From an uncultured Clostridia bacterium (GTDB taxonomy: Bacteria; Bacillota_A; Clostridia; TANB77; CAG-508), in NCBI GenBank assembly GCA_947624715.1, contig CANQLO010000002.1:1-64000 (forward strand): a stretch of DNA of 64,000 bases, written 5' to 3'. The notes beneath the pieces were generated by a model, which had not been told where the DNA came from, made no database searches, and saw only the letters and a list, made by a program, of their open reading frames with translations. The position numbers and the translations under genes are program-made. This document shows positions 134 through 50,929 of the stretch, in pieces (position 1 is the stretch's first letter; each line of letters begins with the position of its first letter).

Positions 134-177
134 ATCGAGTAGAGAATAAATAATTATTTTATTTATTCCCTCTCACA

Positions 178-207
178 CCACCGTACGTGCCGTTCGGCAT
201 ACGGCGG
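178..207 (-). ncRNA. Group II intron domain V
   Basis: Catalytic hairpin of the ribozyme. On the minus strand the outer arms (8 bp, one G-U pair) enclose a two-base bulge and a GCC/GGC tip with a GAAC loop. The segment that follows reads GGTGTGAGAGGG, as in many bacterial introns. It abuts the maturase stop codon, which is the usual arrangement. Confidence 0.88.
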
Positions 208-208
208 T

Positions 209-1483: not shown

Positions 1484-1977
1484 GTTTGTTTTCTTATCTC
1501 CTTTCCGAAGATGAATAAATCATTTATTTTAAGTGTTCCTATGGGATACGCCCATATTCGCCTTATTAATACATTCTAATTTTTATTCATCTCAAATTTT
1601 GGTTCCGAAAACTAATAAATTGTTCAACCCTTCGGAAAAATTTCCTACTATGGTATCTGCTGACTTCTTGCAATTAACCTTTTTCGACCATGTTTCCATG
1701 TTTGCAAGATCTCATGTGGTAAGTTATTTAATTTTCCTCTTTTACTCGCTTGATTTACTGTATAAGCTACGTGTATCTTTGGACTTTAACCTGCTTTGTG
1801 GTCTTATCCACTTATACAGCCTTGATATCAAGTTTTTATGCATCGAGCCAAGATTTTGCTACACACTTCCTCCATGTCACACCTCACGATGGAACACTTG
1901 TGTTTCACTATGTGGTTGGCGATACATACTTCCACTACGGACTTGCACCGATTAACTAAATGACATGCACGTCGCAC

Positions 1978-5307: not shown

Positions 5308-5335
5308 AAAAAAAGGACTGCAATTAATCAGTCCT
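5308..5335 (-). terminator. Terminator after the surface-protein genes
   Basis: The stem AGGACTG/CAGTCCT (5314-5320, 5329-5335) is followed by a run of T residues on the minus strand. It ends the transcript carrying the wall-anchored cohesin-like protein and the small membrane protein. Confidence 0.85.
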
Positions 5336-5424
5336 CCGCAACATAATTAAAAGTTAAAAATGTATTTTTATTATGACATCATATTAAGTTGTTTAAATAG
5401 TTTTATAAATTTTTACTTATATAT

Positions 5425-5811
5425 TTATTGTTTTTTTAATATGTAAGTACCACCTACTGTTCCTTCTTTTCCTATTATTGTTAATGTATCATTTTCTAGA
5501 GTATAATCATATGTTGAATCTTCAATCGTTTCATCTTCAAATTTAATAAATAATTCTGTATCGTTTAAATCATATTTAAAATTGTATTTATCTTGTTTAT
5601 CAAATAATACTCCTTTGCCATTTCCATTAAATTGATAGCTTACATCTTCATTATATTTATATACTCCATTGAAAATTGTTACATCTCCAGTAAATTCATT
5701 TTTATTACTATTTATAATAATTAAACTTGCTACTATTATTATAGCAATAATAGTAGCAATAATTATCATAAACTTTATTTTTGATGTTTTCCTACTTTGT
5801 TTGTTCTGCAT
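5425..5811 (-). CDS. Small membrane-anchored extracellular protein, unknown
   Basis: 128 residues that I do not assign to a family. A basic N terminus (QNKQSRKTSKIKF) leads into a hydrophobic segment at about residues 14-34 without a lipobox. A soluble, probably beta-rich domain follows (FNGVYKYNEDVSYQF, KYNFKYDLNDTELFIKFEDE, YTLENDTLTIIG, GGTYILKK). The pattern of short strands with N, D and G turns recalls small lipocalin-like or copper-resistance-like barrels, but this is only an impression. The start overlaps the 3' end of the upstream cohesin-like gene by 37 bp, so translation is probably coupled and the two products may act together at the envelope. Confidence 0.7.
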   Translation of the reverse strand: MQNKQSRKTSKIKFMIIIATIIAIIIVASLIIINSNKNEFTGDVTIFNGVYKYNEDVSYQFNGNGKGVLFDKQDKYNFKYDLNDTELFIKFEDETIEDSTYDYTLENDTLTIIGKEGTVGGTYILKKQ

Positions 5812-7754
5812 TTTGTATATACAACTAGGCTTGCTCCAGAAACAATTAGTAAACTAATCCATAACATAATATTACTATTGTCTCCAGTTTCTGGTCTAGT
5901 AGGATCTGTAGGTTTTGCTTCTTCTTCTCCTTCATCTTCTGAAACTAATTTTGGAATTACTGTTCCTTCTTCAATTAGTTCTCCACAATCTAAACAATAA
6001 ATATCTCCTGTATATCCTTCTTTTTCTTCTGTTGCTTCTACTGCATTTCTAGTTTCTGTATTAACATGGTTATTAGGATCTAAATACATTTCTCCACAAA
6101 TTTCACATTCTGCTTCAACTGTGCAAGTTGCATCTCCTTGATGTCCTAATGGAGCTATTACTTCTCCTTCTTCCACTTTTGTTTCGCAATCTTTACAGTA
6201 TACATCTCCTGTGTATCCTTCTTCTGTACAAGTTGGTTCTACATCATCTCTTATTTCTAAGCTATCAGGATTGTGATTATCTGGATTTTTTTCTCCATAA
6301 GCTTTTCCACAAACATCACATATTGTAGGTGAATCACATGTTGCTGTTCCTCCCTTATGTCCTGTTGGTTCGATATCTTCACCTTTCTTTATTAATTGTT
6401 GGCATGCTGTACAATATGTATCTCCTGTATATCCTTTTTCTTCACATTTTGGTTCTTTTGCATTTCTTACTTCTGTTGGAGCATTATTGTGATTATTAAG
6501 ATCTTTTTCTCCATAAGCTTTTTCACAAACATCACATATTGCAGGTGAATCACATGTTGCTGTTCCTCCTGTATGTTTTTCTCTTCTTACGTTTCCACAT
6601 CCACATGTGCTTTCATGATATTCTTCGTCTGCTTTATGAAGATTCTCATAATAATGCTCTGCTTTTATAACTAAATCTTGTTCTGAAACTTCTGTTTTAT
6701 CTAAATTAAATAATTTATTACAAACAGAACATTTATAGTGTTCTTTTACTCCATTTTTTAATTCATTTTGAGTATGAACTGCTTTTTGTTCTGGTACCCT
6801 TACATATGTATGGTCTACTAGTTCAAGTGGTGCATCTGAACCTTCTATTATCTTGCCACAATCTCTACATTTTTTGTATTCAGCGTGTCCATGCTTTAAA
6901 CAAGTAGATGCTTCTGCAGGAAATGTATCCACATTCTCATGTGCACATTCTACTGTAACTTCACATTTGGCACTATATTTACCATTTGCTGTTCTAGCTA
7001 TAATTGTTGCATTTCCTACTTTTTTAGCTGTTACTACACCATTTTTTACTTCTGCAACATCATTATTATTACTTTCCCAAACTATTTCATCTGAAGCATC
7101 TGGTGGTGTAAGTGTTGCTGTTAATGTTTCTGTTTTTCCTGCTTTGATTGTTGTATTGTCTTTGTTTAATTTAAGTCCTGTTGCATTAACTATAACTGAA
7201 ACTGTATCAATATCCATAGTTATTGCATTATCGCTGATAGGACTACTGTGTCCGTCAACTTCTGCAACAAATTGATATCCAATAAATCCACTTTCTTCTT
7301 GTCTAAATCCCATTAGGTAATCAGCTTTTTTAGATGTATCGGTTATTTTACATTTTATTGTTGCTATATCAGCTTTACCTGTTTTTATTGTACATCCTTC
7401 TGCACATGCAAATGTAAGCTTCATTGACCTATTTGTAAAATCATAATCATCAAATTTATTTGTTCCTTCTGCCAAATTTACTTCATTGATTAAGTTATTA
7501 TTTAAAGTTGTAGAAACAAATTCCATTCCTTCTGGTACTTTAAAATTGATTTGCATTCCTGTTAATTTAGCAGTAGTTTCAATTGAGACGGTATATGTAA
7601 TATCCCCAGCTTCTCCAGAATTTACTGTGGTCTTGTCTGCTTTAATGTTTAATTTAAGTGTAGAATTGGCAGCATTTACCCCCCCCACAATTGGAATTAC
7701 GCAATTTAACAATAATACAAACACTGTAAAAATCGTTATTAATTTCTTGTTCAT
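5775..7754 (-). CDS. Wall-anchored protein with cohesin-like and Big_2 domains
   Basis: A 659-residue surface protein. A signal peptide covers residues 1-28. Residues about 32-188 have the look of a cohesin fold: VNSGEAGDITYTVSI, LTGMQINFKVPEGMEFVS, SMKLTFACAEG and KADIATIKCKI match the strand order of type I cohesins. A Big_2 Ig-like domain follows (about 192-268, WESNNNDVAEVKNGVVTAKKVGNAT). A cysteine-rich region of repeated CxxC units runs to about residue 600. The C terminus has RPETG at 620-624, a hydrophobic helix and a basic tail, a sortase signal. A sortase gene lies about 8 kb upstream on the same strand, and three dockerin proteins lie between. Inference: this is the wall receptor for those dockerins. 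Codons 23-26 of the signal peptide contain eight consecutive G residues, here in frame. Confidence 0.82.
   Translation of the reverse strand: MNKKLITIFTVFVLLLNCVIPIVGGVNAANSTLKLNIKADKTTVNSGEAGDITYTVSIETTAKLTGMQINFKVPEGMEFVSTTLNNNLINEVNLAEGTNKFDDYDFTNRSMKLTFACAEGCTIKTGKADIATIKCKITDTSKKADYLMGFRQEESGFIGYQFVAEVDGHSSPISDNAITMDIDTVSVIVNATGLKLNKDNTTIKAGKTETLTATLTPPDASDEIVWESNNNDVAEVKNGVVTAKKVGNATIIARTANGKYSAKCEVTVECAHENVDTFPAEASTCLKHGHAEYKKCRDCGKIIEGSDAPLELVDHTYVRVPEQKAVHTQNELKNGVKEHYKCSVCNKLFNLDKTEVSEQDLVIKAEHYYENLHKADEEYHESTCGCGNVRREKHTGGTATCDSPAICDVCEKAYGEKDLNNHNNAPTEVRNAKEPKCEEKGYTGDTYCTACQQLIKKGEDIEPTGHKGGTATCDSPTICDVCGKAYGEKNPDNHNPDSLEIRDDVEPTCTEEGYTGDVYCKDCETKVEEGEVIAPLGHQGDATCTVEAECEICGEMYLDPNNHVNTETRNAVEATEEKEGYTGDIYCLDCGELIEEGTVIPKLVSEDEGEEEAKPTDPTRPETGDNSNIMLWISLLIVSGASLVVYTKCRTNKVGKHQK
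7679..7686 (-). repeat. G8 homopolymer in signal-peptide codons
   Basis: Eight consecutive C on the plus strand (G on the coding strand) form Val-Gly-Gly-Val codons 23-26 of the cohesin-like wall protein. Such a run is rare in this AT-rich DNA and would put the protein out of frame on a one-base slip. Confidence 0.75.
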
Positions 7755-7857
7755 TTTTTGATTCCTCCTAAAAAAATCTATATATTAATTTTACTCTTAC
7801 TTTTGTTAAAAGTCAATAATTTGATAAAATTTTATAGATTATAAATTTTACCATTTA

Positions 7858-10833
7858 TTAGCTTAATTTTTCTATTTCTTTAACATGTCTTAGTAGTGCT
7901 GTATAGTCAGATATTGTTATTATACTGTCATTATCTATCTTTGCTCTTTCCAACTTTTCTCCTGTTAAAAGTTCAACTTCTTTTACATGTCTTAAAATTG
8001 CTAGACAGTCTGATATTGTTACAAATCCATCTCCGTCTACATCACCTTTTTGGTAACTATCAAGTGCTACAAATTGATAATTATGCTTTTCAGCATATTC
8101 TTCAGCAGTTGAATTCTTGTATCCATAAAAAGTTATATCTTTAGGACAATTAACAAATACATAGAAGAATCCATCCATATTTTCTATTTCTGCATTTTTA
8201 TCTCTAAAAGTTACCTTTTTAAGACTAGATAAATTTTTTACACTATTTACACGTATATAATTAACATTATTAAAATCAATTTCTTCTAAATAGGGATTAC
8301 TATCAAATGCATTGGAATTAATGTATGTAACTTTATCTGGTACTTTATATGTTTTATCTTTTTTACCACAAGGATAACTCATTAGTCTACCAACTTTTTC
8401 AGTTAAAACTCCATCTATTGCTTCATATACAGTATTATTGGCATCTACAATATACTTTTCAAAGTTTGTGCAAGCTTTGTCTATTGTAAATAAACAATAT
8501 TTTATTGATGCTGGAATTGTTATTGATACTAATGTTTTATTTTTAAATTCAGGCATTACTTTTGTTACCATTACTCCATTTATTTCTTCTGGAATTACAA
8601 CATTTGCTTCATTGCCTTTGTAATTTGTTATTATAATTGTTCCATCATCATTTTTTTCATATTCCCATATTGCACCTATTGGATCATAGGGAATTACTTG
8701 TATTTGTGCTTTAACAGAAGGAGTATTTACAGAACTTACTGTGATTGTTACAACTGTTGACTCAAGTTTATTTGCCTTTATCACTCCATTTTGTGTTACA
8801 CTTACTAATTCTGGATTTGATGATTCCCATTTTAATAGCTTATCTGCACATCCTTCTGGAGTTAATGTTGCTGTTAATTTTACTTCTTGGTCTGGATATA
8901 CTTTATATGCATTTTGGGTTGTATCTTTTTCTAAACTACTTGGTACACCAATTGTTACTGATGTTGGATTAGTAGTTTTATTAGCATCTGCTGACTCGAA
9001 TACACTTCTATATGTATAATCAGTTGTATTTCCTGTTGACAAATCTTTTAAATTATGAATAGTTATTTCATATACCTGTCCTTGCAATGGGTAAATCGTG
9101 CTATCATACATATCAATTCTATCACTATAAGCAGATAATGAATTTGATTTTAAATTTCTTTTAAACTTTTTATTTGTAGTGCTTAATTCCTCATTAAATT
9201 CCCAAGTTTCATCTGTATTTAAGCACTTAATAGTTGCTGTTGTTGTATCAAGTACCTGATACTTATCAGTAAATTGTGCTGTCCATGTAAACCTTTTATT
9301 GTCTAGTGTTTCTACGAAAGTTATACCATTGCTAGGCCAGCTTTCTAAAAAATTATCTGTACTTTGTGAACCATTAAACTCATTTGTAGCCATTTTTTCA
9401 CTCATTCCAAAACTAAATGTAGAATAATGCTCATTTAATAATTTTTGTCTATGAGTAAAATCTTTAGCAACATCTGTACTATCATCTAAAAATTTTTTTA
9501 TCGCATTTTTCATTTGATTAGCAGTTGTTCCATAGCTTCCCCTAGCGACATTTTCTGCATAACCTCCAGATATTGTACCTCCCATTGCCTTATTATAAAA
9601 CTCATCTGTTACTCCCGGAACATCTTTTTGGAATATATAGTGCGTAATATCTTGTTCTAATTTTAGCCATCTATAAGACATTAAAGTTGCCTTATATTGT
9701 GCAAAGACAGAACCATCTTCATCATGTGTTAATTTTGGAAGTCCTCCTGCTACTCTTATTGCATTTACATAAGCAGTTATACCATTAAGTGCATTTGTTT
9801 TGATTTTTCCACCAACTAAACTTCCTGGTTCAGTATTTGAAACAGGTTTTATCTCATATATTTCACTATCTAAATTTAATAGTCTTTCTGCCTCTTTATA
9901 TTCTTGTCTACCTTGTTCTAGTTTAGTCTTTTCATCTGCTGTAAGCGCTACTTCTTTTGTCGGCTTTAAAAAGTCTTTGGATACAGTTAGCACTACTATC
10001 ATTTTTTTATTAACATCATAATCAAATACTGGTACTTTTTTATCTCCATAATTTTTGTTTATGTTTTTATTAGCACAACTCGCAAGTAAAAGTGGATTCA
10101 TTATGTAAATTGTTCCATTAGAAAATTCAATGTTTTCTTTAGGACTGGTTAGGGAAGACATATATTTTGACTGTATATCTAGTCCCATCATATATTCTCT
10201 AATGCTACTTTCTTGCTCTTTTAATTGCTCATTTATATAAAATATATCCTCATCAAAAACTAATCCTGCATTAGTTCCTAGTTTTGAGCTAAACGCATTA
10301 TACATTGTAATAGCTTGCATTGATAAGCTTTTATTATAAGTTATAGGATCACTAGTATACTTTGCTTTATAGTCACTTATTATTTGTGAGGCTTGTTTAG
10401 ATGTAGCAGACATATTATAATAAATTCCAGCATTTATGTTGTCATCTCCATCAGTAGCAAAACTTCCCATTAATGTAGTAGATGCTCTATATGGATAAGG
10501 CTCTCCATATCCATATTCATTTGTTACATAATTGGGTTCAACAGAGCCATAAGATATAATTTTGCCTTCCTCTGTTGTTTCTATATATAGGTAGTTACTA
10601 TAATTGGTATCTGTATAAAATGTGTAAGCATATCCTCCAAATGCAGATGGCGTTTGTAATTTTGGCTGTCCTAAAACTTTTATTATATCATCTACTGTTG
10701 AGTTTTGCTTTACAGTAATTCTATAATTTCCACTACCTAATGTTATAAGTTCGTCGCTTATAGCTTCAACCTTTGGTATTAGACTAAATAGTAATACAAA
10801 AATAATCAAAATGCTTAAAATTTTTCTTTTCAT
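7858..10833 (-). CDS. Secreted CAP-domain protein with LRR and dockerin
   Basis: A 991-residue exported protein. Signal peptide about 1-24. Residues about 30-110 resemble the CAP-associated N-terminal domain (NSTVDDIIKVLGQPK). A CAP/SCP-like domain follows at roughly 345-520, with YVNAIRVAGGLPKL, HRQKLLN and FSFGMSEKMA; the exact catalytic-type histidines are not certain. Next come a Big_2-like domain (about 675-760, WESSNPELVSVTQNGVIKA), BspA-type leucine-rich repeats (IPASIKY, VPDKVTYINSNAFDSN) and a C-terminal dockerin (929-991) with two calcium loops starting DVDGDGFVTISD and DNDSIITISD. It probably docks onto the cohesin-like wall protein encoded next. The ribosome binding site is unusually far from the start (see separate entry). 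Confidence 0.85.
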   Translation of the reverse strand: MKRKILSILIIFVLLFSLIPKVEAISDELITLGSGNYRITVKQNSTVDDIIKVLGQPKLQTPSAFGGYAYTFYTDTNYSNYLYIETTEEGKIISYGSVEPNYVTNEYGYGEPYPYRASTTLMGSFATDGDDNINAGIYYNMSATSKQASQIISDYKAKYTSDPITYNKSLSMQAITMYNAFSSKLGTNAGLVFDEDIFYINEQLKEQESSIREYMMGLDIQSKYMSSLTSPKENIEFSNGTIYIMNPLLLASCANKNINKNYGDKKVPVFDYDVNKKMIVVLTVSKDFLKPTKEVALTADEKTKLEQGRQEYKEAERLLNLDSEIYEIKPVSNTEPGSLVGGKIKTNALNGITAYVNAIRVAGGLPKLTHDEDGSVFAQYKATLMSYRWLKLEQDITHYIFQKDVPGVTDEFYNKAMGGTISGGYAENVARGSYGTTANQMKNAIKKFLDDSTDVAKDFTHRQKLLNEHYSTFSFGMSEKMATNEFNGSQSTDNFLESWPSNGITFVETLDNKRFTWTAQFTDKYQVLDTTTATIKCLNTDETWEFNEELSTTNKKFKRNLKSNSLSAYSDRIDMYDSTIYPLQGQVYEITIHNLKDLSTGNTTDYTYRSVFESADANKTTNPTSVTIGVPSSLEKDTTQNAYKVYPDQEVKLTATLTPEGCADKLLKWESSNPELVSVTQNGVIKANKLESTVVTITVSSVNTPSVKAQIQVIPYDPIGAIWEYEKNDDGTIIITNYKGNEANVVIPEEINGVMVTKVMPEFKNKTLVSITIPASIKYCLFTIDKACTNFEKYIVDANNTVYEAIDGVLTEKVGRLMSYPCGKKDKTYKVPDKVTYINSNAFDSNPYLEEIDFNNVNYIRVNSVKNLSSLKKVTFRDKNAEIENMDGFFYVFVNCPKDITFYGYKNSTAEEYAEKHNYQFVALDSYQKGDVDGDGFVTISDCLAILRHVKEVELLTGEKLERAKIDNDSIITISDYTALLRHVKEIEKLS
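7861..8049 (-). repeat. Dockerin module, copy 1
   Basis: Coding repeat for the 63-residue dockerin of the CAP protein. Its DNA is about nine-tenths identical by eye to the two copies at 10949-11137 and 13549-13740, although the proteins upstream are unrelated. Confidence 0.85.
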
Positions 10834-10867
10834 TTTTATTTGTATGATTATTTCATACTCTCCTTTT
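10834..10867 (-). promoter_or_regulatory. Ribosome binding site separated from start by a hairpin
   Basis: The only good Shine-Dalgarno (AAGGAGAG, 10865-10858) is about 26 nt from the ATG at 10833, and no other usable start codon lies between them in frame. The gap contains a 6-bp hairpin (GTATGA/TCATAC, 10842-10858) that, when folded, would leave about 8 nt to the start. Confidence 0.55.
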
Positions 10868-10876
10868 ATAAATATT

Positions 10877-10898
10877 TAGGTTTTTAAAAGGTTACCTA
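10877..10898 (-). other. Short leader hairpin resembling one at 20075
   Basis: A 5-bp inverted repeat (TAGGT/ACCTA) in the leader of the CAP-protein gene. Over about 45 nt the region looks like the leader of the cyclophilin gene at 20053-20100 (shared TATTTAGG.TTTT and CCTAT..ACCTT). Function unknown. Confidence 0.3.
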
Positions 10899-10945
10899 TA
10901 TACCTTTATTTAACAATTATTCTATGATATAATTTTTTATTTTTA

Positions 10946-13468
10946 TCATTGAAGTAATTCTATTTCCTTTACATGTCTTAATAGTGCTGTATAGTCAGAT
11001 ATTGTTACCATGTCATTATTATCAATTTTTGCTCTTTCTAATTTATCTCCTGTTAGAAGTTCAACTTCCTTTACATGTCTTAAAATTGCTAGGCAGTCCG
11101 ATATTGTTACAAATCCATCTCCGTCTACATCACCTTTTTGAAATACTGGTTTATCGGTTATTTCAAAATTTACTGTTGTAGTTGCTGATTTGTAATTATG
11201 AGTTTCTTCTGATACTGCTTTTACTGTATATTTTCCAATTTCTGTAGGTGTCTGAGTTTTATAATTTGTATCGTCTTCAGACTGTTTTTTAAAGTAATAT
11301 GTTACATTTCCACCAGAAGTATTGTTTAATACTGTAACTTTTGGAGTATCACCAAATTGCACATTTGGGCAACTAATTTTTAAATCGTTTTCTGCTTGTA
11401 AAATATTAAATTTTGCCCATAAATTTCTTGTTCCATAATTTCCATTTTTGGCTATTCTTACTGCAATATGAACATAATATGTTCCTACTTCTGTTGGCGC
11501 CGTTTCAGTTTCTCCCTTTGTTGATTTTTCAGTATTATATGTTATATCAGTCCAACTTGAACCTGCTTTATTTTCAATAAGGACTGGATTTGGTGTTTGT
11601 CCATAAACAATATCTGAAACTTGCATTGATACATCACTTGGTGCTCTACTTATTTTAAAAGATTTTTCTGCTGTTCCAGTATAAGAGCCCTGACCTTTTA
11701 CAACAACGATTGGATTCGAGTTATATGCATTGATATTATTTTCGTAACTTACTGTATAATCAATGTTTTCTTTTAGAATTGTTGCTCCATTAGCAACAAC
11801 TACTTCTGGTCTCTTTTCTGTTCCATCATATGTAAATGTATCAGGCTTTAATACAATCATCCCTGGTACTATTTCATTATCACTCTTTATTATTGCATAC
11901 CTTTCTGTCTTAAAATTATTTTCTGCCCATGTTAAAGCATATGAATTGTCTTTTACATAAAATATAACATTATTACTTCCTGTAAATGCTGATGCTTCAA
12001 TTGTAGATATACTAGAAGGAATTTTTACTCCTTGAAGAGAATTGATTGCAAAGAAAACGGATTCATCTATTGCTGCTTTACATCCTTCTTCTATATCAAC
12101 AAATCTAACATATGATGAAAGAAATACACCATCTCCTATGTTATTTACTGATTTTGGAATATTTATTGATGTAAATCTACAATTTTCAAATGCCTTGTCT
12201 TCTATTGTTTCTACATTTTCTCCTAATTTTATGCTTGTTAGCTTTGTGCAGTTTGAGAATGCATTTTCCTTTATTGTTTTTACTTTATTATCAAGTACCA
12301 CTTCTCCGGACACGCCAGGAGCACATAAAATTACTTCTGTTTTATCTTTATTATATAAAATACCATTTTCAAATGTATAATTATTATTTTCTGAATCAAC
12401 TACAATATTAGTTAAATTATTACAGCCTTTAAAAGCATTAGTACCTATCTCATTTAAATTTTTAGGAAAATTTATTGTAGTTAAATCTTCACAATCTTCA
12501 AATGCACTTTCACCAATTTTTTCTACTGTATCTGGCAAAGTTACCTTTTTTATAATTGCATCACCAACATTGGTTGGATAACTAAATGCATTTTTTCCTA
12601 TTATCTTTGTGTCATATTGGACATCACCATTTAATTTTTTTACTGTACGAGATGCTGGGATATTAACTTCTTCTGCAAATCCATCATATTGGATTAACAT
12701 ACTATCTCCTGTTGAACCATCATATCCCCATCTAAATCCTTCTGGTTCTTCTTCAATAGTATAACTTCTTGGTGCTGGTTCGTCATAAGCTGCTTCAACT
12801 CTATATACTGTACCATCTAACATTGCTGATACATTTCTGTGTCCACTTCCTGCACCTGGCTCGTTTGCAGCATACCTCAAATATGCTCTTATTCCTACCA
12901 TATCGCACATTCTAAGAATCATATTTGATGTAGCAAGACAATCTCCTCCTTCAAGTAGAGGAAAATACCTATAATCTGGTGAGGTATTGTAAGTATATTG
13001 ACAAATATATTTACATATTTGTTCCATTTTTTCTTTTTCAGTCATATTATCCTTTATATTTTCACTTATATATTGTTTTATAATATTATCAATATATTCT
13101 GTTAAATAATCAACAACTTTTACTTTTATTTCAAAAGTTTCATTTCCAACATTAACAGTAACAACACCTTCTGTATTTCCAACTCTTCTAGTTTTTATTA
13201 ACCCATCTTCTGTTACAGAAAGATAAACATCATTGTCAACAGAATAATCTGGAATAATATTTGTTCCTGTTACTTTTATTTGAAATGATGTTTTATAGTT
13301 TTCTGGAATCGTAATTCCATATTGTGCACAATCATCATTGATTGTATATAATGTTACTTCTTGTGCATTTATGCTTACAGCATCTACTTTTTGAGGCATT
13401 ATAATTGTAAAAAGATTAAGTAACATTACACTAACTAAAATAATACTAAGAATTTTCCTTATTTTCAT
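10946..13468 (-). CDS. Secreted transglutaminase-like LRR protein with dockerin
   Basis: An 840-residue exported protein. Signal peptide about 1-30; Ig-like N-terminal region to about 118. A transglutaminase-like domain follows at about 130-235: the cysteine in GGDCLATSNMILRMC, the histidine in GSGHRNVSA and the aspartate in VEAAYDEPAP form the expected Cys-His-Asp order. BspA-type leucine-rich repeats cover about 270-530 (KIGESAFEDCEDLTTINFPKN and similar). Two or three repeated beta domains of the YDG/MBG kind follow (FTYDGTEKRPEVVV, YGQTPNP, FGDTPKV). The dockerin occupies 778-840. Whether it crosslinks, hydrolyses or only binds is open. Normal AAGGAGAGG ribosome binding site. Same transcription unit as its dockerin neighbours. 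Confidence 0.85.
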   Translation of the reverse strand: MKIRKILSIILVSVMLLNLFTIIMPQKVDAVSINAQEVTLYTINDDCAQYGITIPENYKTSFQIKVTGTNIIPDYSVDNDVYLSVTEDGLIKTRRVGNTEGVVTVNVGNETFEIKVKVVDYLTEYIDNIIKQYISENIKDNMTEKEKMEQICKYICQYTYNTSPDYRYFPLLEGGDCLATSNMILRMCDMVGIRAYLRYAANEPGAGSGHRNVSAMLDGTVYRVEAAYDEPAPRSYTIEEEPEGFRWGYDGSTGDSMLIQYDGFAEEVNIPASRTVKKLNGDVQYDTKIIGKNAFSYPTNVGDAIIKKVTLPDTVEKIGESAFEDCEDLTTINFPKNLNEIGTNAFKGCNNLTNIVVDSENNNYTFENGILYNKDKTEVILCAPGVSGEVVLDNKVKTIKENAFSNCTKLTSIKLGENVETIEDKAFENCRFTSINIPKSVNNIGDGVFLSSYVRFVDIEEGCKAAIDESVFFAINSLQGVKIPSSISTIEASAFTGSNNVIFYVKDNSYALTWAENNFKTERYAIIKSDNEIVPGMIVLKPDTFTYDGTEKRPEVVVANGATILKENIDYTVSYENNINAYNSNPIVVVKGQGSYTGTAEKSFKISRAPSDVSMQVSDIVYGQTPNPVLIENKAGSSWTDITYNTEKSTKGETETAPTEVGTYYVHIAVRIAKNGNYGTRNLWAKFNILQAENDLKISCPNVQFGDTPKVTVLNNTSGGNVTYYFKKQSEDDTNYKTQTPTEIGKYTVKAVSEETHNYKSATTTVNFEITDKPVFQKGDVDGDGFVTISDCLAILRHVKEVELLTGDKLERAKIDNNDMVTISDYTALLRHVKEIELLQ
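10949..11137 (-). repeat. Dockerin module, copy 2
   Basis: 63-residue dockerin of the transglutaminase-like protein, differing from copies 1 and 3 at only a few residues. The predicted recognition positions (TISDCLAILRHVKE, TISDYTALLRHVKE) are identical in all three. Confidence 0.85.
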
Positions 13469-13545
13469 TTTTCCTCTCCTTATTTTTATATTTTGATTAA
13501 TATTATTTACAATCTTACTTTTACATTTATAATAATTAAATCAAT

Positions 13546-15903
13546 TTATTGATTTAGTAGTTCTATTTCCTTTACATGTCTTAATAGTGCTGTATAATCA
13601 GATATTGTTACCATATTGTCTTTATCTATTTTGGCTCTTTCTAATTTTTCTCCTGTTAAAGTTTCAACTTCCTTTACATGCCTTAAAATTGCTAAACAGT
13701 CTGATATTGTTACAAATCCATCTCCATCTACATCACCAAATTCGAGGTCAACATCATTTGGATCTATACCTATCATAAATGATGATAACTCATCTGTAGC
13801 AATACTTATATTTCCGTTGCTATCTACTATTTTATTAATTACTACAATTTCTCCATTTGATTTTTTCTGTACTAAACTAATATTTTTTCCTATATAGGCT
13901 TTTCTAAATGTAAATGTTAATTCTTTTTCTCCAAAGCATAGTCCACTATTGGTTGAGATTGAATATGATGGCATTATATATTTATCTGATATTTTAGATT
14001 TCATATCGTTATAATCTTGGTTATCTGCACTTAATGTACTTACACTAAGTTGTGTTGTTGGTTCTCCTATTACTTTTAAAATAGTTCCTGTTCTTGAATC
14101 TGTTAATGTTAATTCTTCTACATATTTACATGTAATACCTCTTTCTTTAGCATAAGATTCAGCATAAGAACTTTGGGTTGTGTATATTGTTGCATAATAA
14201 ACCTTTCCTCCACTGCCAACCCAAGTAGATCCTGTCCATAATATATCTTCTCCAATATTATTTACATTAGATAATATTAAAATTATTTCTAAATTTCTGC
14301 AACTATAAAATGCTGATGCTCCAATTGTTTTCATTGACTTTGGTAGTATAACTTGATAAAGATTTGAAAAATATCTAAATTCATTTTCCGGAATATTAGT
14401 AATTCCTTCTTCTACAACTATTTTCTTTACTGAATCTCTAATTGGTTCCCAGCAATTATCCCCACTTGAATAAGAAAATCCTCCAGTACTTGAAAGTGGT
14501 CCTTTAACTATTGCCTCTGGATCTACTGTAATTTCTCCTTTTCCTGATATTTTAAGAGTTCCATTGCCATCCAAAGACCATGTTGCATTTTCTCCTGCAA
14601 CTCGATACATAGTTTTATTAAATTTTCCGTTGCTTGAATCTATACTATAAAAGTCTACCATATTGGCATTTGATGTATAAAAAACAATTTTATTATTTTT
14701 TAATACCGGTCTACAGTCTGACATTGTTGCATTTGCAGTATATTCGCTTCCTAATTTCTTACCATTTTCATCTATGAATATATAGTGGATTTTACCTGTT
14801 GATAATGTATCATTATCTATCATATCTTGAGATTCGCCATATTCTTCCCAGCAAACCATAAATCGATTATCATTTATCTTAATAATTTCAAGACCTGTAA
14901 AAGATTTTTCATCATCAGTATAATCTGTAAGCCAAACAAGATTTGTTGAAGCTGATTTAAAGTCATTTATTGGTGTTACTGTAAGATATATATTATGTGG
15001 CATATCTGTTGTTTTTACTTTATCATAATTAGCTTGGTCTATAGATGTTCCAATTGTAAGTATATTGTTGTTTGAAATTGCCATTCCGTCGACACTTGCA
15101 TAACATGGTAAAGCCCATGCAGAATCTCTACTTCCACCATAGTTTAATACAGGAATTGATGATTTTGCTAAACTATTTTTATCATATCTACTTAACTGTG
15201 TATATCTACTTCCTTCACTTTGTTCTAAAACATACATATATTGATCTTTGTAATCTATGTATTGAGCAAATGAATGCCATAAATCTGCATCTACTATTTT
15301 TCCTGTCATGGCACTTTCATCTACTTCTATCATTAGAAAACCTTGATGTCCTTGATTAAAGTCTGGGTCAACATATCCCTCATGTCCTGTAACAATATAA
15401 AGCTTTCCATTTACTTCTGCCATTTCAACACATCCTGCATCAAATGGATATCTTATTTGTTTACCAAATGCATTTCCATCACCTATTATTTTAGCCTCTC
15501 CTTGCTTTACCCAATTAGTATTATATTTAATAACTCTTATGACTTCTGCATTATCATCTTCTTCTGTATTATTTTGTCCCTCTACTAAATAATACGCATT
15601 ACTACTAGCATAAAAGCCACCATAAATGCTTAATTCCATGTTTATTTTACTTTTCTTTGTAATCTTAAAATTATTGTCATAATATTCTACACCAACATTT
15701 TTATTGGTACTATCATAAAATACTCTCATATATCCTGTGCTTAATGGTACTAATGATGAGTATCTTATTGAATATCTTTGAACATTACTGCTAGCAATTG
15801 GAACTAAATCATTACTTTCAATTGCTATATTTTTATTTGGGAATATAAGTAATGTAGATTCAATTATTAAAATAAGAATTAAAAAAATACTTAATTTTTT
15901 CAT
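13546..15903 (-). CDS. Secreted propeller-like LRR protein with dockerin
   Basis: A 785-residue exported protein with a signal peptide at about 1-28. Residues about 40-430 consist of repeated four-stranded-sheet-like segments (KLYIVTGHEGYV, QYMYVLEQSEGS, NNILTIGTSID, NRFMVCWEEYG), suggesting a beta-propeller of unknown ligand. A short BspA-type LRR stretch follows (ITNIPENEFRYFSNLYQVILPKS), then a beta domain, and the dockerin at 722-785. No catalytic motif recognised. It is the first gene of the dockerin set, behind its own promoter, 78 bp ahead of the transglutaminase-like gene. Confidence 0.8.
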   Translation of the reverse strand: MKKLSIFLILILIIESTLLIFPNKNIAIESNDLVPIASSNVQRYSIRYSSLVPLSTGYMRVFYDSTNKNVGVEYYDNNFKITKKSKINMELSIYGGFYASSNAYYLVEGQNNTEEDDNAEVIRVIKYNTNWVKQGEAKIIGDGNAFGKQIRYPFDAGCVEMAEVNGKLYIVTGHEGYVDPDFNQGHQGFLMIEVDESAMTGKIVDADLWHSFAQYIDYKDQYMYVLEQSEGSRYTQLSRYDKNSLAKSSIPVLNYGGSRDSAWALPCYASVDGMAISNNNILTIGTSIDQANYDKVKTTDMPHNIYLTVTPINDFKSASTNLVWLTDYTDDEKSFTGLEIIKINDNRFMVCWEEYGESQDMIDNDTLSTGKIHYIFIDENGKKLGSEYTANATMSDCRPVLKNNKIVFYTSNANMVDFYSIDSSNGKFNKTMYRVAGENATWSLDGNGTLKISGKGEITVDPEAIVKGPLSSTGGFSYSSGDNCWEPIRDSVKKIVVEEGITNIPENEFRYFSNLYQVILPKSMKTIGASAFYSCRNLEIILILSNVNNIGEDILWTGSTWVGSGGKVYYATIYTTQSSYAESYAKERGITCKYVEELTLTDSRTGTILKVIGEPTTQLSVSTLSADNQDYNDMKSKISDKYIMPSYSISTNSGLCFGEKELTFTFRKAYIGKNISLVQKKSNGEIVVINKIVDSNGNISIATDELSSFMIGIDPNDVDLEFGDVDGDGFVTISDCLAILRHVKEVETLTGEKLERAKIDKDNMVTISDYTALLRHVKEIELLNQ
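13549..13740 (-). repeat. Dockerin module, copy 3
   Basis: 64-residue dockerin of the propeller-like protein, same two-loop layout as copies 1 and 2. The sequence match stops abruptly at the module edge. Confidence 0.85.
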
Positions 15904-15940: not shown

Positions 15941-15969
15941 ATTATATCATTTTTTATTTTATTTGTACA
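15941..15969 (-). promoter_or_regulatory. Promoter of the dockerin gene set
   Basis: On the minus strand TGTACA (15969-15964) and TATAAT (15946-15941) are 17 bp apart, with a TGA just ahead of the -10. It lies between the sortase terminator and the first dockerin gene. Confidence 0.55.
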
Positions 15970-15992
15970 TATTTTAAGATAGTTTTTTATGG

Positions 15993-16016
15993 AAAAAAAC
16001 TGTGGCTTTGCCACAG
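15993..16016 (-). terminator. Terminator after sortase
   Basis: The stem CTGTGGC/GCCACAG (16000-16016) with a 3-nt loop is followed on the minus strand by seven T residues. Confidence 0.88.
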
Positions 16017-16025
16017 GATTTTAAA

Positions 16026-16074
16026 GCTACAACCGAGCCCGCATGCTCCGGTTGCATCGGGAAATGGTTGTAGC
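16026..16074 (-). other. GC-rich structured element in the sortase 3' region
   Basis: A 9-bp outer stem (GCTACAACC/GGTTGTAGC) encloses a second stem (CCCG+ATGC paired with GCAT+CGGG, one bulged G). It is clearly GC-richer than its surroundings and is followed within 10 nt by the intrinsic terminator. It could be part of a 3'-UTR-derived small RNA, a stability element or a remnant of a mobile repeat. I do not recognise a known riboswitch. Confidence 0.45.
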
Positions 16075-16097
16075 GTATAAGTGTTTTTGTATAATAT

Positions 16098-16844
16098 TTA
16101 ATTTATTTCTTGCATAAGTCCGACTACAATGTATCTTGCTCCATCATATTCATATGCACAAGTTGATAATGTTATAATTCTATCATTTTCTTTTACTTCT
16201 ACATTACTTTTAAAATTAGATTTTCTATATAATTCATCTATATCATTTTGACTTATTCCGCTTAATTTGTATATATTTGATTCAACACTTCCTGTAAAAC
16301 CTGAAAATAGTTGTACAACATAATTCTTTTCAGGAGTGAAATAATACATAACTTTATGCTTATCATAATAATCTTGATTTCTGTATTTTTGTAATGTTCC
16401 AAACATAGTTGCATTTTTCATATTATGACCATAAATTATTGTATTGTTATCTTCTATATCAGGGTCATTTCTGTAATCCATAAATAAACTTCCAGCAGTA
16501 TTGTATTCTCCAGTAATTAACCTTCTTAAATAATAATCATTATCATTACTTTGCAAAACTGGATAATTTATTGGTGTATCTTTACAATAAATCCATCCTA
16601 CTATGTCTTTATTTTCTTGTTTTAATTTTTCGAAATCTACTGTAAACGGAATCCTATTTTCGTCATTTTCATCATTTTCTATGTTGTTATTATTTTCAAC
16701 TACAGTAATTGCTTTATCTATTAAATCATTATTAAGTTTCTTATTTTTATTTGCTTCTAAAAAGTATAAAACTACTTTGTATGTTGAAAATACAAATATG
16801 ATTATTAAAATTATTAAAACAATACCTTTTATTATTTTTTTCAT
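16098..16844 (-). CDS. Class B sortase
   Basis: A 248-residue membrane-anchored transpeptidase that cuts LPxTG-like signals and links proteins to peptidoglycan. An N-terminal hydrophobic segment (about 5-28) is followed by the sortase B domain. The catalytic histidine is His140 in IIYGHNM, the cysteine is Cys229 in TLSTC and the arginine is Arg237 in GARYIVVG. Clostridial class B sortases accept SPxTG/PPxTG-type motifs. The RPETG and MPQTG signals in this window are therefore plausible substrates, and it is the only sortase here. It precedes the dockerin genes but is separated from them by a terminator. Confidence 0.93.
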   Translation of the reverse strand: MKKIIKGIVLIILIIIFVFSTYKVVLYFLEANKNKKLNNDLIDKAITVVENNNNIENDENDENRIPFTVDFEKLKQENKDIVGWIYCKDTPINYPVLQSNDNDYYLRRLITGEYNTAGSLFMDYRNDPDIEDNNTIIYGHNMKNATMFGTLQKYRNQDYYDKHKVMYYFTPEKNYVVQLFSGFTGSVESNIYKLSGISQNDIDELYRKSNFKSNVEVKENDRIITLSTCAYEYDGARYIVVGLMQEIN

Positions 16845-46570: not shown

Positions 46571-47275
46571 CTATTTGAACATTCTTTTATATCTAACAAA
46601 AGAGTATATACCAATTAAAAATATACCTACTAAAATTATATAAATTGTACTAGTTGAACCAGTTTGTGGCATTTTCTCATCCTTTGCAGTTGTTAAATCA
46701 GGTACTTTTTCAATTGTATTAGGTGACGCAGGTTCCTCTTCTGTCTGATTTGGTATATTCAATTCATTACCTTTTGGTGTTACTTCTTCTTTAGGTTCTT
46801 TAATAGTAATATTAGCTTCCTTTTCATAATTAAAATCAAATTCATCATTTACTGTTAATAAAGCTTCAGTTAACTCAACTTTTGTAGTAGTTGAATTTGC
46901 ATTTTCATCTATAGTCAATATTATATCAAAAATACTTGTGTTTTCTTTTGCTACTCCCTCATCATATTCTGCTATTATTTTTTTTGTAGTATTTGAATAA
47001 TTTACTACCCAGTCCGACTTTCCTTCAACTTCAACATTTTTTATTATTGCATCATCATAATTTAGCTTTGCTTCTAATCCCATTATTGCATCTTCTGGTA
47101 TATCTGTTAATTTTCCCAATGATACAGTTAAAGTAACAGTTTCAGTTTCTTTTTCTATTTCAATTGAAGAAGTCATATTTATTTCAACACTTTCATTTCC
47201 TGTAGCCGCCAAACTAGTTATTGGAACTATTAGTGTTAATATCAAAATATATAGTAAAACTACCTTTTTTTTCAT
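46571..47275 (-). CDS. Wall-anchored cohesin-like protein (second)
   Basis: A 234-residue surface protein. Signal peptide about 1-23. Residues about 28-160 look like a single cohesin-type sandwich: VTLTVSLGKLTDIPEDAIMGLEAKLNYDDAIIKNVEVE and TSIFDIILTIDENANS follow the strand order. A Pro/Glu/Thr-rich linker leads to the sorting signal MPQTG at 202-206, then a membrane helix and a basic tail. It lies 120 bp after the GH10-dockerin gene, which suggests the two form a pair. The cohesin assignment rests on pattern, not on a search. Confidence 0.72.
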   Translation of the reverse strand: MKKKVVLLYILILTLIVPITSLAATGNESVEINMTSSIEIEKETETVTLTVSLGKLTDIPEDAIMGLEAKLNYDDAIIKNVEVEGKSDWVVNYSNTTKKIIAEYDEGVAKENTSIFDIILTIDENANSTTTKVELTEALLTVNDEFDFNYEKEANITIKEPKEEVTPKGNELNIPNQTEEEPASPNTIEKVPDLTTAKDEKMPQTGSTSTIYIILVGIFLIGIYSFVRYKRMFK

Positions 47276-47395
47276 TTATTTTATTCCTTTCATTTGTTTA
47301 ATGTACTTTAATTACTTATTAATATTACCATTTTCTTTTTTATTTTACAATATTTTTATTATATATTTATATTACATTTTTGTAATAATTTTGTT

Positions 47396-50300
47396 TTAAT
47401 TTGATAGTATTATTATTCTAATTCTAATTAAGTCTTTAATATTTATATTATTATCTAAATTTGTGTCTGCTGCTATAATTTCCTCATTTGTTAATCCACT
47501 TTCATATAACAAATATTTTCTTAACCTAACAATATCTTTAATATTAACTAAACCATCAGAATTAACATCTCCATTAATAATCAGAGTATACTCCTTATTA
47601 TTAGCATCCTTTAATGTATCTCCAGTTTTTATTTTATCATTATCTAAGATTTTCTTTTTATTTCTATATATATCAAATTGTATACCTAAATTCAATTTTT
47701 TTTCTAATTCATTTTTAGTTATATTTCCTTCAATATTTTTTATTACTTTATCTTCAATAATATATTCTTTAATATATTTTTCTACTATTTGAAATTCAAC
47801 AAAGTTTTCATTTCCAGCCTTATCAGTTGCTATTAGTTTATAATAACCTTCTCCTGAAATTAAAGTATTATTAATATAATCATCTTGAATTATTGAATTC
47901 TTATATAATTTTACATTTTTTAAATTTGCATCACTTACTGTAGGTTTAACAGATTCAATATATAATTTGTTATTTTCTACATTAGCTATTTGTGGTTTAA
48001 TTTTATCTATATTATTTACAGTTGCTTTAATTTTAAATGTTCTTTCTTGAATTTTTACAGTAAAGTCAAATTCTCCATTGTCATAGAATACTTTTGTTTC
48101 ACTATTATTATTATTTATAATTTTTGTTTTACTTCCATGTATTAATGTGGCTATAACATTTCCATTTGTTATTTCTTCTACATCATATTTTACTGTAAGG
48201 ATTGATTTTTCTTCTTCAATAAACTGTTCTACCCTTTTGTTAATAAGTTGCGAAAGTATATTTGAGAAATTAATAACAATATTTTTATTTACATAGTTAC
48301 GTTGAGCCATATTTGTTTGTAATTGATTCATATAAAGATCTTTAATACTATTTATTGTTTCATATATAAAGGATATATCTGCATCATTACTTTTGTTATA
48401 TAAATCAATCAAATTATTTAATGCTTCTTTTACTTCTTTATTAATATCTATGTTATCTTCAAAATTATACTCTATATACATTTCCTTATATGTATCAAAT
48501 ATATTTAAAAATTTACTTAAAATATCATTAATAGCATCATTATCGTTTATACTTAATACTAATTTATTTAATATTAAAAATTGTGTATTCATAATATTAT
48601 TTAAATCATTTACATCATCCTTTGTTATGTTGCTATTTAATAATTCAATATAGTTAATTATTTCATTATAACATATAATTAAATCATCATTATAATAATT
48701 ATAATAATTATTATAATTTTCCTTTATTTCATTATTAAATGTTTTAATTTTGTCCAAATTATTAATTCTTTTTTCAGGAAAAGCTTTCATCTCAATTTCA
48801 AAATTAGTTTCTAATTCCATATAATTAACTTTTAATGTTACTTTTCCTATTGTAGTATCATCAAATCCAGTTACATTTACATTTTCATCTGTAAGACTTA
48901 CTTCCTCAACTGTTCCATCATCATAGAACACACTAATAGTTCCTCCCTCTAAATCTAAACTATCTAATTGTTTATAATAAACTTTTTTGTTTGGTAGTTT
49001 GTTCATCTCTATTTTGCTTGGAGTACTATTAAAAATAAACTCAGCAATTTTTTCTGTATCATCCCCCACTTTCAAATTTAACTGTTGACTTTCATTATTA
49101 AAATTTACATTTATTAAGTATTCCCCATTGTAAAGTCTTGTTTGAGTTTCATTATTACCATCTGTTTTTATATTGTCTGTATAATTAAGCCATTCATTTA
49201 CTAGTAGTGCATAAGCATTTCTTTCTTCATTTTCAAAATGATTACAATTATATACCCAAGTTGTAAATTCATAAACATTTTTGTTGCTATATGCTGATAT
49301 CAATGAATCTCTCAAATAATCTGCTTTGGTTCTTTTTTCTTCTTCAGTATATTTTCCTATTTTATCAGATAAATAATTATCATATTCTGTAATAACTGCT
49401 TTTTTTATTTTTGTTTTTTCTAATACATCATTAATTATATTATAATAACTTTGTGGTGATCCACTATAGTTATTTGCTACATGATATTGTATGCCTATTG
49501 CATCAATATTAGTTGTATATTTTAACACTCCATTAGTTTCATTCATATCATAAATCATTACATTTTTGTCTGTATGACCTGAACCTTTAATTATGTTATC
49601 ATTTAAGACTAACGTTGCCGTTTGATTAAGTTCTCTTACTTTATCAAAACATCTTGCAACAAATTTACAATAATCTTCATTTCCTATAAATAATACTCTA
49701 GACTTTTCTGTATTATCTAAAAAGTTTTTATCTGTTAGATAATTTCTTCCATATAAATAATATTTAAAATATTGGCATTCTATAAGTTCATTTACTGCAT
49801 CCCATTCCTTTACATTTGGAAACTTTTTTATTAGTTCTTCTATATGGCTAAATACTATATTTTCGAAATCCTCTTGTATCTGTAAAGTTAAATTTTCGGC
49901 CTGTTCTTTATTTATATTTCCATCTTTATATTGAAGATATACGTATGCCATGGTTCCTTCTTTTGGGGTGTCTATATTACCAATTAAACTAACCAACTTA
50001 TTTGAACAAACAGCATCTCTCCAAATCCAATGTCCTCTTACATCAATATTGGCTTGTGTAGCATATTTAACAATCTCTTCAGCTTTTTCATATGAATTAT
50101 TATCTGTTGTTGACCATTTAAAGTCATTTTCAGCTCCTACAATGTTAAACAAATTACTATCTATAATATTTTGTGCTAAATTCCTAATCGCTGTTCCAAA
50201 TTTAAATTCGTTATCCAACATATTAATTTCTATGTTGGCATTATTTATTAATTTTCCATTTTGATTTTTTACGATAATTTTAACATCCTGTTTTCTGTAT

Positions 50301-50929
50301 TTTTCAATTCTTTTTAAGGCTTCTTCTCTCCATAATGCTCCTAATTTTTGACCTTCGTATGAATAATTTTCTTCTTTTTTATTCTCATCTGTGTATATTT
50401 CTATATGATGTTCAGTTTTTCCATTATTAAAAGCATCCTTACTGTTTATGTAATCATTATTTTGATATATTGCTTTATTATCTATTTTTACAATAACGTT
50501 CGGTAGATTACTTATTAAATAAATTGGAATATATTTAATATTATTAACCACTTCTATCTCTACTACTATTGTATTATCAATATCAATTCCATTTATATTA
50601 TCTACTTTAGGAATGGTTAAGGTATTATTTTCAAAATCAATACTAATAGTCATTGCTTCATATCTTAATTCCTGATTTTGACCTTTAATATAATTTTCAC
50701 CAAAAATACCTTCAAATATTAAGTCCATTGGAAGCATCATAGTGTTGTATAACTCAATAACTTGAAAATCATTATCTTCATAATATAAAGATTTTTGTTC
50801 TTTTTTATTAATTATTAAAATAGATGTTTGTTCAATTTTTTCTTTATTGTTAAACTTAATGAATACTCCCAATATAAGCAATATTATAATCAGAACAATA
50901 TACTTCCTAAATGGGTGTTTTCTTACCAT
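47396..50929 (-). CDS. GH10 glycosidase with C-terminal dockerin
   Basis: A 1177-residue exported protein. An N-terminal membrane or signal segment (about 8-26) precedes a copper-amine-oxidase-N-like domain (about 35-155). The GH10 domain (about 205-600) opens with the family lead-in KYRKQDVKIIV and EFKFGTAIR. Glu381 in WDAVNEL is the acid/base and Glu515 in VITEYDNY the nucleophile of endo-xylanases. A Big_3-like domain follows (about 660-735), then a long helical region, another Ig-like region (FDFTVKIQERTFKIK) and the dockerin (1119-1177: DVNSDGLVNIKD, DTNLDNNINIKD). Sitting in a capsule locus, it may trim or release the capsule rather than plant xylan. Confidence 0.85.
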   Translation of the reverse strand: MVRKHPFRKYIVLIIILLILGVFIKFNNKEKIEQTSILIINKKEQKSLYYEDNDFQVIELYNTMMLPMDLIFEGIFGENYIKGQNQELRYEAMTISIDFENNTLTIPKVDNINGIDIDNTIVVEIEVVNNIKYIPIYLISNLPNVIVKIDNKAIYQNNDYINSKDAFNNGKTEHHIEIYTDENKKEENYSYEGQKLGALWREEALKRIEKYRKQDVKIIVKNQNGKLINNANIEINMLDNEFKFGTAIRNLAQNIIDSNLFNIVGAENDFKWSTTDNNSYEKAEEIVKYATQANIDVRGHWIWRDAVCSNKLVSLIGNIDTPKEGTMAYVYLQYKDGNINKEQAENLTLQIQEDFENIVFSHIEELIKKFPNVKEWDAVNELIECQYFKYYLYGRNYLTDKNFLDNTEKSRVLFIGNEDYCKFVARCFDKVRELNQTATLVLNDNIIKGSGHTDKNVMIYDMNETNGVLKYTTNIDAIGIQYHVANNYSGSPQSYYNIINDVLEKTKIKKAVITEYDNYLSDKIGKYTEEEKRTKADYLRDSLISAYSNKNVYEFTTWVYNCNHFENEERNAYALLVNEWLNYTDNIKTDGNNETQTRLYNGEYLINVNFNNESQQLNLKVGDDTEKIAEFIFNSTPSKIEMNKLPNKKVYYKQLDSLDLEGGTISVFYDDGTVEEVSLTDENVNVTGFDDTTIGKVTLKVNYMELETNFEIEMKAFPEKRINNLDKIKTFNNEIKENYNNYYNYYNDDLIICYNEIINYIELLNSNITKDDVNDLNNIMNTQFLILNKLVLSINDNDAINDILSKFLNIFDTYKEMYIEYNFEDNIDINKEVKEALNNLIDLYNKSNDADISFIYETINSIKDLYMNQLQTNMAQRNYVNKNIVINFSNILSQLINKRVEQFIEEEKSILTVKYDVEEITNGNVIATLIHGSKTKIINNNNSETKVFYDNGEFDFTVKIQERTFKIKATVNNIDKIKPQIANVENNKLYIESVKPTVSDANLKNVKLYKNSIIQDDYINNTLISGEGYYKLIATDKAGNENFVEFQIVEKYIKEYIIEDKVIKNIEGNITKNELEKKLNLGIQFDIYRNKKKILDNDKIKTGDTLKDANNKEYTLIINGDVNSDGLVNIKDIVRLRKYLLYESGLTNEEIIAADTNLDNNINIKDLIRIRIIILSN

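Follow-up and report, generated by a model that had tools for sequence, protein, structure and literature searches.

An operon that likely displays three dockerin proteins on a wall-anchored cohesin-like protein in an uncultured Clostridia bacterium

We describe a five-gene operon in a 64,000-nucleotide stretch of DNA from an uncultured Clostridia bacterium (positions 1 to 64,000 of contig CANQLO010000002.1, assembly GCA_947624715.1; hereafter the window). The operon most likely encodes a plug-and-socket module for wall display, in which a wall-anchored protein with one N-terminal cohesin-like domain would act as the socket for three secreted proteins that end in dockerins, the plugs. The parts and the likely mechanism are well supported; Ca2+-dependent binding is a prediction, and the roles of the cargo are conjectural. 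An earlier note, made from the letters alone, had placed a wall protein with an N-terminal cohesin-like domain and an RPETG signal beside three dockerin proteins, and this observation is confirmed here.

Layout of the operon

In the order of transcription on the minus strand, a class B sortase gene is followed by a terminator-like hairpin, a promoter-like site and then a run of five genes. These encode the propeller, transglutaminase-like and CAP dockerin proteins, the RPETG anchor and a DUF5640 protein, separated by 77, 112 and 103 bases at the first three junctions and overlapping at the last. The features are as follows.

16098..16844, minus strand, class B sortase gene (TIGR03064, 209.1 bits, above the cut-off of 153.75)
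16000..16016, minus strand, intrinsic-terminator-like hairpin 3' of the sortase gene
15941..15969, minus strand, promoter-like site before the operon (TGTACA-17-TATAAT, TG ahead of the second hexamer; consensus match)
13546..15903, minus strand, secreted beta-propeller, LRR_5 and dockerin protein
13576..13737, minus strand, dockerin of the propeller protein, residues 723-776 (PF00404, 27.3 bits)
10946..13468, minus strand, secreted transglutaminase-like (weak), LRR_5 and dockerin protein
10973..11134, minus strand, dockerin of the transglutaminase-like protein, residues 779-832 (PF00404, 20.1 bits, under the cut-off of 22.9)
7858..10833, minus strand, secreted CAP, Big_2, leucine-rich repeat (LRR) and dockerin protein
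7885..8046, minus strand, dockerin of the CAP protein, residues 930-983 (PF00404, 25.0 bits)
5775..7754, minus strand, wall-anchored cohesin protein (socket)
7188..7673, minus strand, cohesin domain of the anchor, residues 28-189
6936..7187, minus strand, Big_2 domain of the anchor, residues 190-273 (45 bits)
5778..5897, minus strand, RPETG sorting signal (LPXTG_anchor 15.8 bits and srtB_target 15.3 bits, both slightly under cut-off)
5425..5811, minus strand, DUF5640 membrane protein (PF18692, 56 bits)
5312..5337, minus strand, terminator-like site 3' of the last gene

A single operon of sortase and dockerin genes was considered and rejected; the sortase gene is placed outside the dockerin operon because terminator-like and promoter-like sites intervene, although promoter-like consensus matches are frequent in this AT-rich window (102 found, 80 expected). 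The sortase gene lies just beyond the region that the earlier note covered. The start of the DUF5640 gene overlaps the end of the anchor gene, and the same overlap is present at L001 in the nearest genome, a metagenome-assembled genome (uncultured Clostridia bacterium isolate Lapin-030) whose contig starts inside the anchor gene. The interval between sortase gene and operon also contains a very stable RNA fold (15990-16085, minus strand, z -5.5), made up of a 9-pair stem enclosing a hairpin and then the terminator, with a core that is present once in the window. Rfam at a permissive threshold gave no match for this hairpin upstream of the operon.

The anchor protein carries a cohesin-like domain

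The anchor (5775-7754, minus strand) consists of a signal peptide, an N-terminal domain, a Big_2 domain, Cys-rich repeats, the RPETG motif, a hydrophobic segment and a basic tail. The predicted structure of residues 1-275 matches cohesins over about residues 28-189, with the cohesin jelly-roll fold, and 42 of the 50 matches listed in the structure comparison are cohesins; the solved entries 2jh2, 2w1n and 2vo8 are among the matches. When residues 28-188 were excised, Cohesin (PF00963) was the top Pfam family (21.5 bits, E 2.8e-4, cut-off 24.1). The domain therefore models as a cohesin and not as another fold, as the earlier note had proposed. When its profile was compared with solved structures, a cohesin ranked first, but at E 0.71. 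The anchor thus combines a single cohesin, by model, with a sortase signal read in the sequence as RPETG, hydrophobic segment and basic tail, the arrangement of ScaE-like anchoring. BLASTP of the domain against P0024 gave nothing significant. A homologue search with residues 26-190 alone returned one protein, so distant relatives were taken from genome neighbourhoods. The Cys-rich repeats (5919-6950, minus strand) vary in extent among relatives, the whole protein having 659 amino acids in one and 513 in another.

Three near-identical dockerins on different cargo

The three dockerins are near-identical in sequence. Each has two tandem Ca-loop-plus-helix repeats, and two of the three pass the PF00404 cut-off of 22.9. 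Loop 1 is canonical with its ligands complete, and the first ligand position of loop 2 is Lys in all three. The earlier description of two-loop dockerins on three secreted proteins holds for the trio as a whole, with the qualification that one member lies below the cut-off and that loop 2 begins with this Lys.

The cargo identities suggested earlier (CAP, transglutaminase-like and propeller/LRR) fared unevenly. The propeller is confirmed: residues 1-600 of that protein gave a model with a predicted local distance difference test score (pLDDT) of 88.8 that matches beta-propellers of many kinds. LRR_5 is above its cut-off in the propeller and transglutaminase-like proteins (139.5 bits in the latter) and below it in the CAP protein, and LRR structures were matched too. 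CAP (PF00188) reaches 18.8 bits in the window protein against a cut-off of 21.1, and 28.1 bits in the orthologue of the relative G015. Transglut_core (PF01841) stays under its cut-off (E 0.18, 12.5 bits against 23), and a Cys-His pattern was read by eye, so that "transglutaminase-like" is used here as a descriptive label and not as family membership. A dockerin protein of the clade with its own xPxTG cohesin (L082:6436-10014) does pass the transglutaminase family cut-off (27.5 bits against 23). In none of the three cargo proteins did Pfam report a glycosidase family at E up to 1. The claim that the module lacks glycosidases is therefore right for the operon, which holds no dockerin-bearing plant-polymer enzyme, but not for the window, where one GH10-like dockerin protein belongs to a second pair described below.

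Gene order is kept in relatives

In G015, four dockerin genes are followed by the orthologous anchor, with a KPETG signal, and immediately downstream of it by the orthologous class B sortase gene; CAP is above cut-off in two of the four dockerin proteins. A similar order is found in G048, where two CAP-dockerin genes precede an anchor of cohesin, Big_2 and SPDTG, a membrane cohesin and a class B sortase. The anchor cohesin of G048 is above cut-off (40.9 bits), and its class B sortase barely so (154.2 against 153.75). One of the G048 CAP-dockerin proteins contains an internal cohesin (L089:9508-9990, minus strand), which scores 38.3 bits only when the region is scanned alone; such proteins could chain together.

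The anchors that adjoin class B sortases carry RPETG in the window, KPETG in G015 and SPDTG in G048, whereas [ILMV]P[QK]TG is the signal in 11 of 13 small sockets. Sortases number 5 in G001, 6 in G015 and 7 in G048. The neighbouring class B sortase probably couples the anchor to peptidoglycan.

Dockerin and cohesin have diverged together

Like the three window dockerins, the four of G015 are near-identical to each other, and the two sets differ. Between window and G015, 40 of 71 dockerin positions are identical, against 702 of 890 in the CAP protein minus signal peptide and dockerin (p 5e-5). The cohesin retains 63 of 147 identical positions against 194 of 278 for Big_2 plus the Cys-rich part (p 9e-8), these segment identities omitting gapped columns (13 in the cohesin and 146 in the Cys-rich part). 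The sortase is identical at 158 of 247 positions.

The two halves of each dockerin were compared at nine recognition-region positions, picked from general dockerin biology. Of 67 dockerin matches, 4 did not divide into two halves and were omitted, as were 5 duplicates, leaving 58 distinct dockerins. The halves agree at 61% of positions within a dockerin and at 16% between dockerins, a difference that none of 5000 permutations reached. In the dockerins of the propeller family (n = 15), agreement is 76% within and 17% between. Positions that are symmetric within a dockerin and different between dockerins are expected of a two-fold symmetric binding surface.

Cohesins and dockerins across the clade

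Of the 56 relatives surveyed, 47 have a dockerin that passes the Pfam cut-off and 24 a cohesin that does so (27 at E 1e-3), with matches in 2 (dockerin) and 1 (cohesin) of 14 control genomes. All 27 relatives with a cohesin match also have a dockerin. Several cohesins per genome are common in the clade, and among the 67 cohesin matches of the 56 relatives none shares an open frame with another, as judged by eye, in a search that is not exhaustive and with a model that misses the present anchor type. The word "cellulosome-like" in the earlier note is too strong, because the anchor has a single cohesin and because such shared frames were not seen among the relatives' matches.

Adjacency was assessed with 150 listed dockerin matches; further dockerins exist. 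On this basis, a listed dockerin is present no more than 3 kb away from 27 of the 67 cohesins, where 1.1 were expected, about 24-fold above chance. In 17 of these, the dockerin lies upstream of the cohesin, on its strand and in a different frame (within 322 bases in 16); in 4 it lies downstream, again in a different frame; and in the remaining 6 the two fall in frames of equal length, which we took to be one frame. None are on opposite strands. We then examined 16 dockerin–cohesin gene pairs closely, finding gaps of 13-120 bases, an xPxTG signal in 14 and a membrane segment only in 2; since the pairs were selected for a cohesin gene directly after a dockerin gene, the common strand and the small gaps follow in part from that choice. 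The cohesin was assigned by a survey match in 12 pairs and by the window Pfam scan in 1, and by model, orthology or likeness for the window anchor, the G015 anchor and L031:6091-6879, which has no Pfam match. A dockerin-then-cohesin pair was not found at L030, L032, L074, L081, L083-L088, L090 and L092.

Other arrangements recur in the clade. Dockerin proteins of about 670-770 amino acids are found at L030 and L083-L088; the six that were scanned, from L030, L083 and L088, contain SH3_3. At L083, the gene after each such dockerin gene encodes a protein in which Cadherin-like domains are combined with a hydrophobic segment and, at the N-terminus, a short beta-like region; this protein may be a non-canonical socket. 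At L073 and L075-L080, a dockerin gene for about 1570-2125 amino acids adjoins a small cohesin gene. Scans of two of these dockerin proteins, from L077 and L080, showed NPCBM and F5/8 type C domains in both. Neighbouring cohesin matches in frames of about 1300 and 320-370 amino acids occur on G017:C13, G022:C17, G023:C29 and G025:C30, contigs with no listed dockerin.

The dockerin as a probable wall tag, one of several

SLH, ChW and choline-binding modules bind wall polymers directly, and the operon dockerins would need a protein socket. Like the dockerin, they stand at the tail of some related passengers, SLH on CAP proteins and all three on propeller proteins. The propeller passenger family has 526 proteins at E 0.01; 18 of the 120 listed carry a dockerin, one being identical to the window passenger, and other listed members carry SLH (P0139), choline-binding repeats (P0212), Big_2 or fn3, the last two not known as wall binders. 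Among 391 genomes of the class, 3 match the CAP protein at 1e-20 and 3 match the propeller protein at 1e-40. In the CAP trio, SLH is present at L099 and a dockerin in G048, and no wall-binding family was found at L100; in the propeller trio, the tails are SLH (L102) and ChW (L101), and the third protein is interrupted and was left unclassed. As the passenger stays constant while its tail varies, the dockerin is one among several solutions and not the commonest. We infer that it fills the role of an SLH, ChW or choline-binding tail on some related passengers.

A second pair and other features of the window

Outside the operon, and outside the region covered by the earlier note, a second pair, of the same kind as the adjacent dockerin–cohesin gene pairs described above, is situated among polysaccharide-synthesis genes (46571-50929, minus strand).

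47396..50929, minus strand, GH10-like, Big_3 and dockerin protein, plug of the second pair (PF00404, 35.1 bits)
46571..47275, minus strand, single cohesin with MPQTG sorting signal, socket of the second pair (LPXTG_anchor, 22.4 bits)

The plug matches the xylanase structure 7d88 at E 2.5e-8 over residues 195-306, and a Pfam scan of the protein found no GH10 family. Its socket scores 21.1 bits with PF00963 over the full protein and 22.5 for the domain (cut-off 24.1).

The window further contains a toxin of the ToxN family, which belongs to type III toxin-antitoxin systems (39206-39712, minus strand, 170.5 bits), and group II intron domains (141-1893, minus strand) surrounding an apparently reverse-transcriptase-like frame at 209-1483. 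A plasmid search in near mode gave no match, nor did viral contigs match the anchor or one unrelated window gene.

Proposed mechanism and alternatives

In the mechanism we propose, a sortase, probably the neighbouring class B enzyme, would couple the anchor to peptidoglycan, with Big_2 and the Cys-rich repeats forming a stalk. The cohesin would bind its dockerin proteins singly, through a non-covalent interaction that depends on Ca2+, and the three cargos would compete for the same sockets. Adhesion and remodelling of matrix or wall are candidate roles for the displayed cargo. The wall display suggested in the earlier note is supported by the cohesin model, the synteny, the co-divergence, the symmetric dockerins and the alternative wall-binding tails.

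Several observations weigh against this mechanism. The Pfam scan of the full-length anchor at E up to 1 did not report Cohesin, the domain stays under the cut-off even when excised, its profile–profile comparison with clade cohesins gave 18.6% probability, and the Pfam Cohesin model also misses the G015 orthologue. Loop 2 of the dockerins is without one ligand. Compared with the close homologue P0001, the cohesin is 91% identical and the other segments 78-89%, so it is not evolving faster there. The correlation of dockerin and cohesin distances (r 0.94 over 16 pairs, 0.79 over a thinned set of nine that we selected from them) is confounded by descent, which alone could yield it, and we do not lean on it. 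No cohesin match was found in 20 of the 47 dockerin-bearing relatives, G015 among them, and 40 of the 67 cohesins have no listed dockerin inside 3 kb; 102 of the 120 listed propeller-family proteins lack a dockerin, many of them also lacking a recognised wall-binding tail. A terminator divides the sortase gene from the operon, class B sortases also adjoin IPQTG or LPQTG sockets (L077, L078), and the motifs on which Clostridioides difficile SrtB has been tested do not include RPETG. Most of the LRR-protein dockerins of Ruminococcus flavefaciens failed to bind any of the cohesins tested (PMC5301203).

Some of these points would also fit a cohesin-fold domain that is an adhesin or serves other partners, with the dockerins binding a different cohesin, such as that of the second pair or one outside the window. 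The divergence of the anchor cohesin, the second cohesin of the window and the frequency of multiple cohesins in the clade are compatible with this. We consider it unlikely, since the dockerin motif of the second pair is clearly different from that of the operon, the order of dockerin, anchor and sortase is kept in G015, G048 has a similar arrangement, and dockerin and cohesin have changed together. Rather improbable, too, is that the operon is an accessory part of a true glycan-degrading complex of the cellulosome or mucinolysome type. The GH10-like cargo of the second pair, the NPCBM and F5/8 type C domains of the two clade proteins and the LRR and transglutaminase-like dockerin proteins that accompany the R. 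flavefaciens cellulosome (PMC2930009) point that way; they are set against operon cargo without a glycosidase family, the absence by eye of two-cohesin frames among the 67 matches in 56 genomes, and the position of the second pair among polysaccharide-synthesis genes. That the dockerins are partnerless Ca2+-binding stabilising tails would suit the degenerate loop 2 and the 20 of 47 relatives without a Pfam cohesin, but is very hard to sustain with recognition positions that vary as a binding surface should, with cohesins so far above chance near dockerins, and with G015 showing that Pfam misses some cohesins.

Comparison with known systems

The plug-and-socket operon offers a testable case of cohesin–dockerin pairing as ordinary wall fixation with several cargos per socket, and its recognition pairs are candidate orthogonal connectors for surface display. 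More tentatively, and as a possibility that we would not yet favour, the dockerin may be a general wall-retention tag in small-genome gut Clostridia, where private, often adjacent and co-diverging pairs would keep a cell's own surface proteins and exclude those of its neighbours, with no multi-cohesin scaffoldins, and cellulosomes would be one elaboration.

The structure entries 2jh2, 2w1n and 2vo8 are Clostridium perfringens non-cellulosomal cohesins on glycosidases. They resemble the anchor domain in standing outside cellulosomes and, by structure comparison, in fold; they differ in that they belong to the secreted enzymes themselves, not to a dedicated wall anchor. Among open-access titles and abstracts, a limited search found none on CAP-dockerin modules beside a cohesin–sortase pair. 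A recent census of cellulosome bacteria demanded a multi-cohesin protein and a dockerin-glycosidase, so systems like this operon would have been left out (PMC11557425). In human-gut genomes, 4333 of 289,232 have both cohesin and dockerin modules, according to the mucinolysome report (PMC12997984). That report also describes cSca5 of the Limousia mucinolysome, with an N-terminal cohesin and a C-terminal LPxTG, which is predicted to receive dockerin proteins and resembles the window anchor in its N-terminal cohesin, its C-terminal sorting signal and its gut bacterial host (PMC12997984). The mucinolysome differs, as described there, in its multi-cohesin scaffoldins and its many dockerin glycosidases acting on mucin (PMC12997984).

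R. flavefaciens ScaE offers a further parallel. This LPXTG protein has a single cohesin, to which symmetric group-4 dockerins bind, one of them on a peptidase (PMC5301203), and transglutaminase-like and LRR dockerin proteins are encoded in what is probably one operon of the same species (PMC2930009). Both systems thus combine a single cohesin on an xPxTG/LPXTG wall protein with symmetric dockerins (PMC2930009, PMC5301203). ScaE mainly anchors a large cellulosome through ScaB, whereas no multi-cohesin scaffoldin was detected here; in the window, CAP and beta-propeller proteins are among the cargos, the socket gene directly follows those of the plugs, and the operon has a class B sortase gene as its neighbour.

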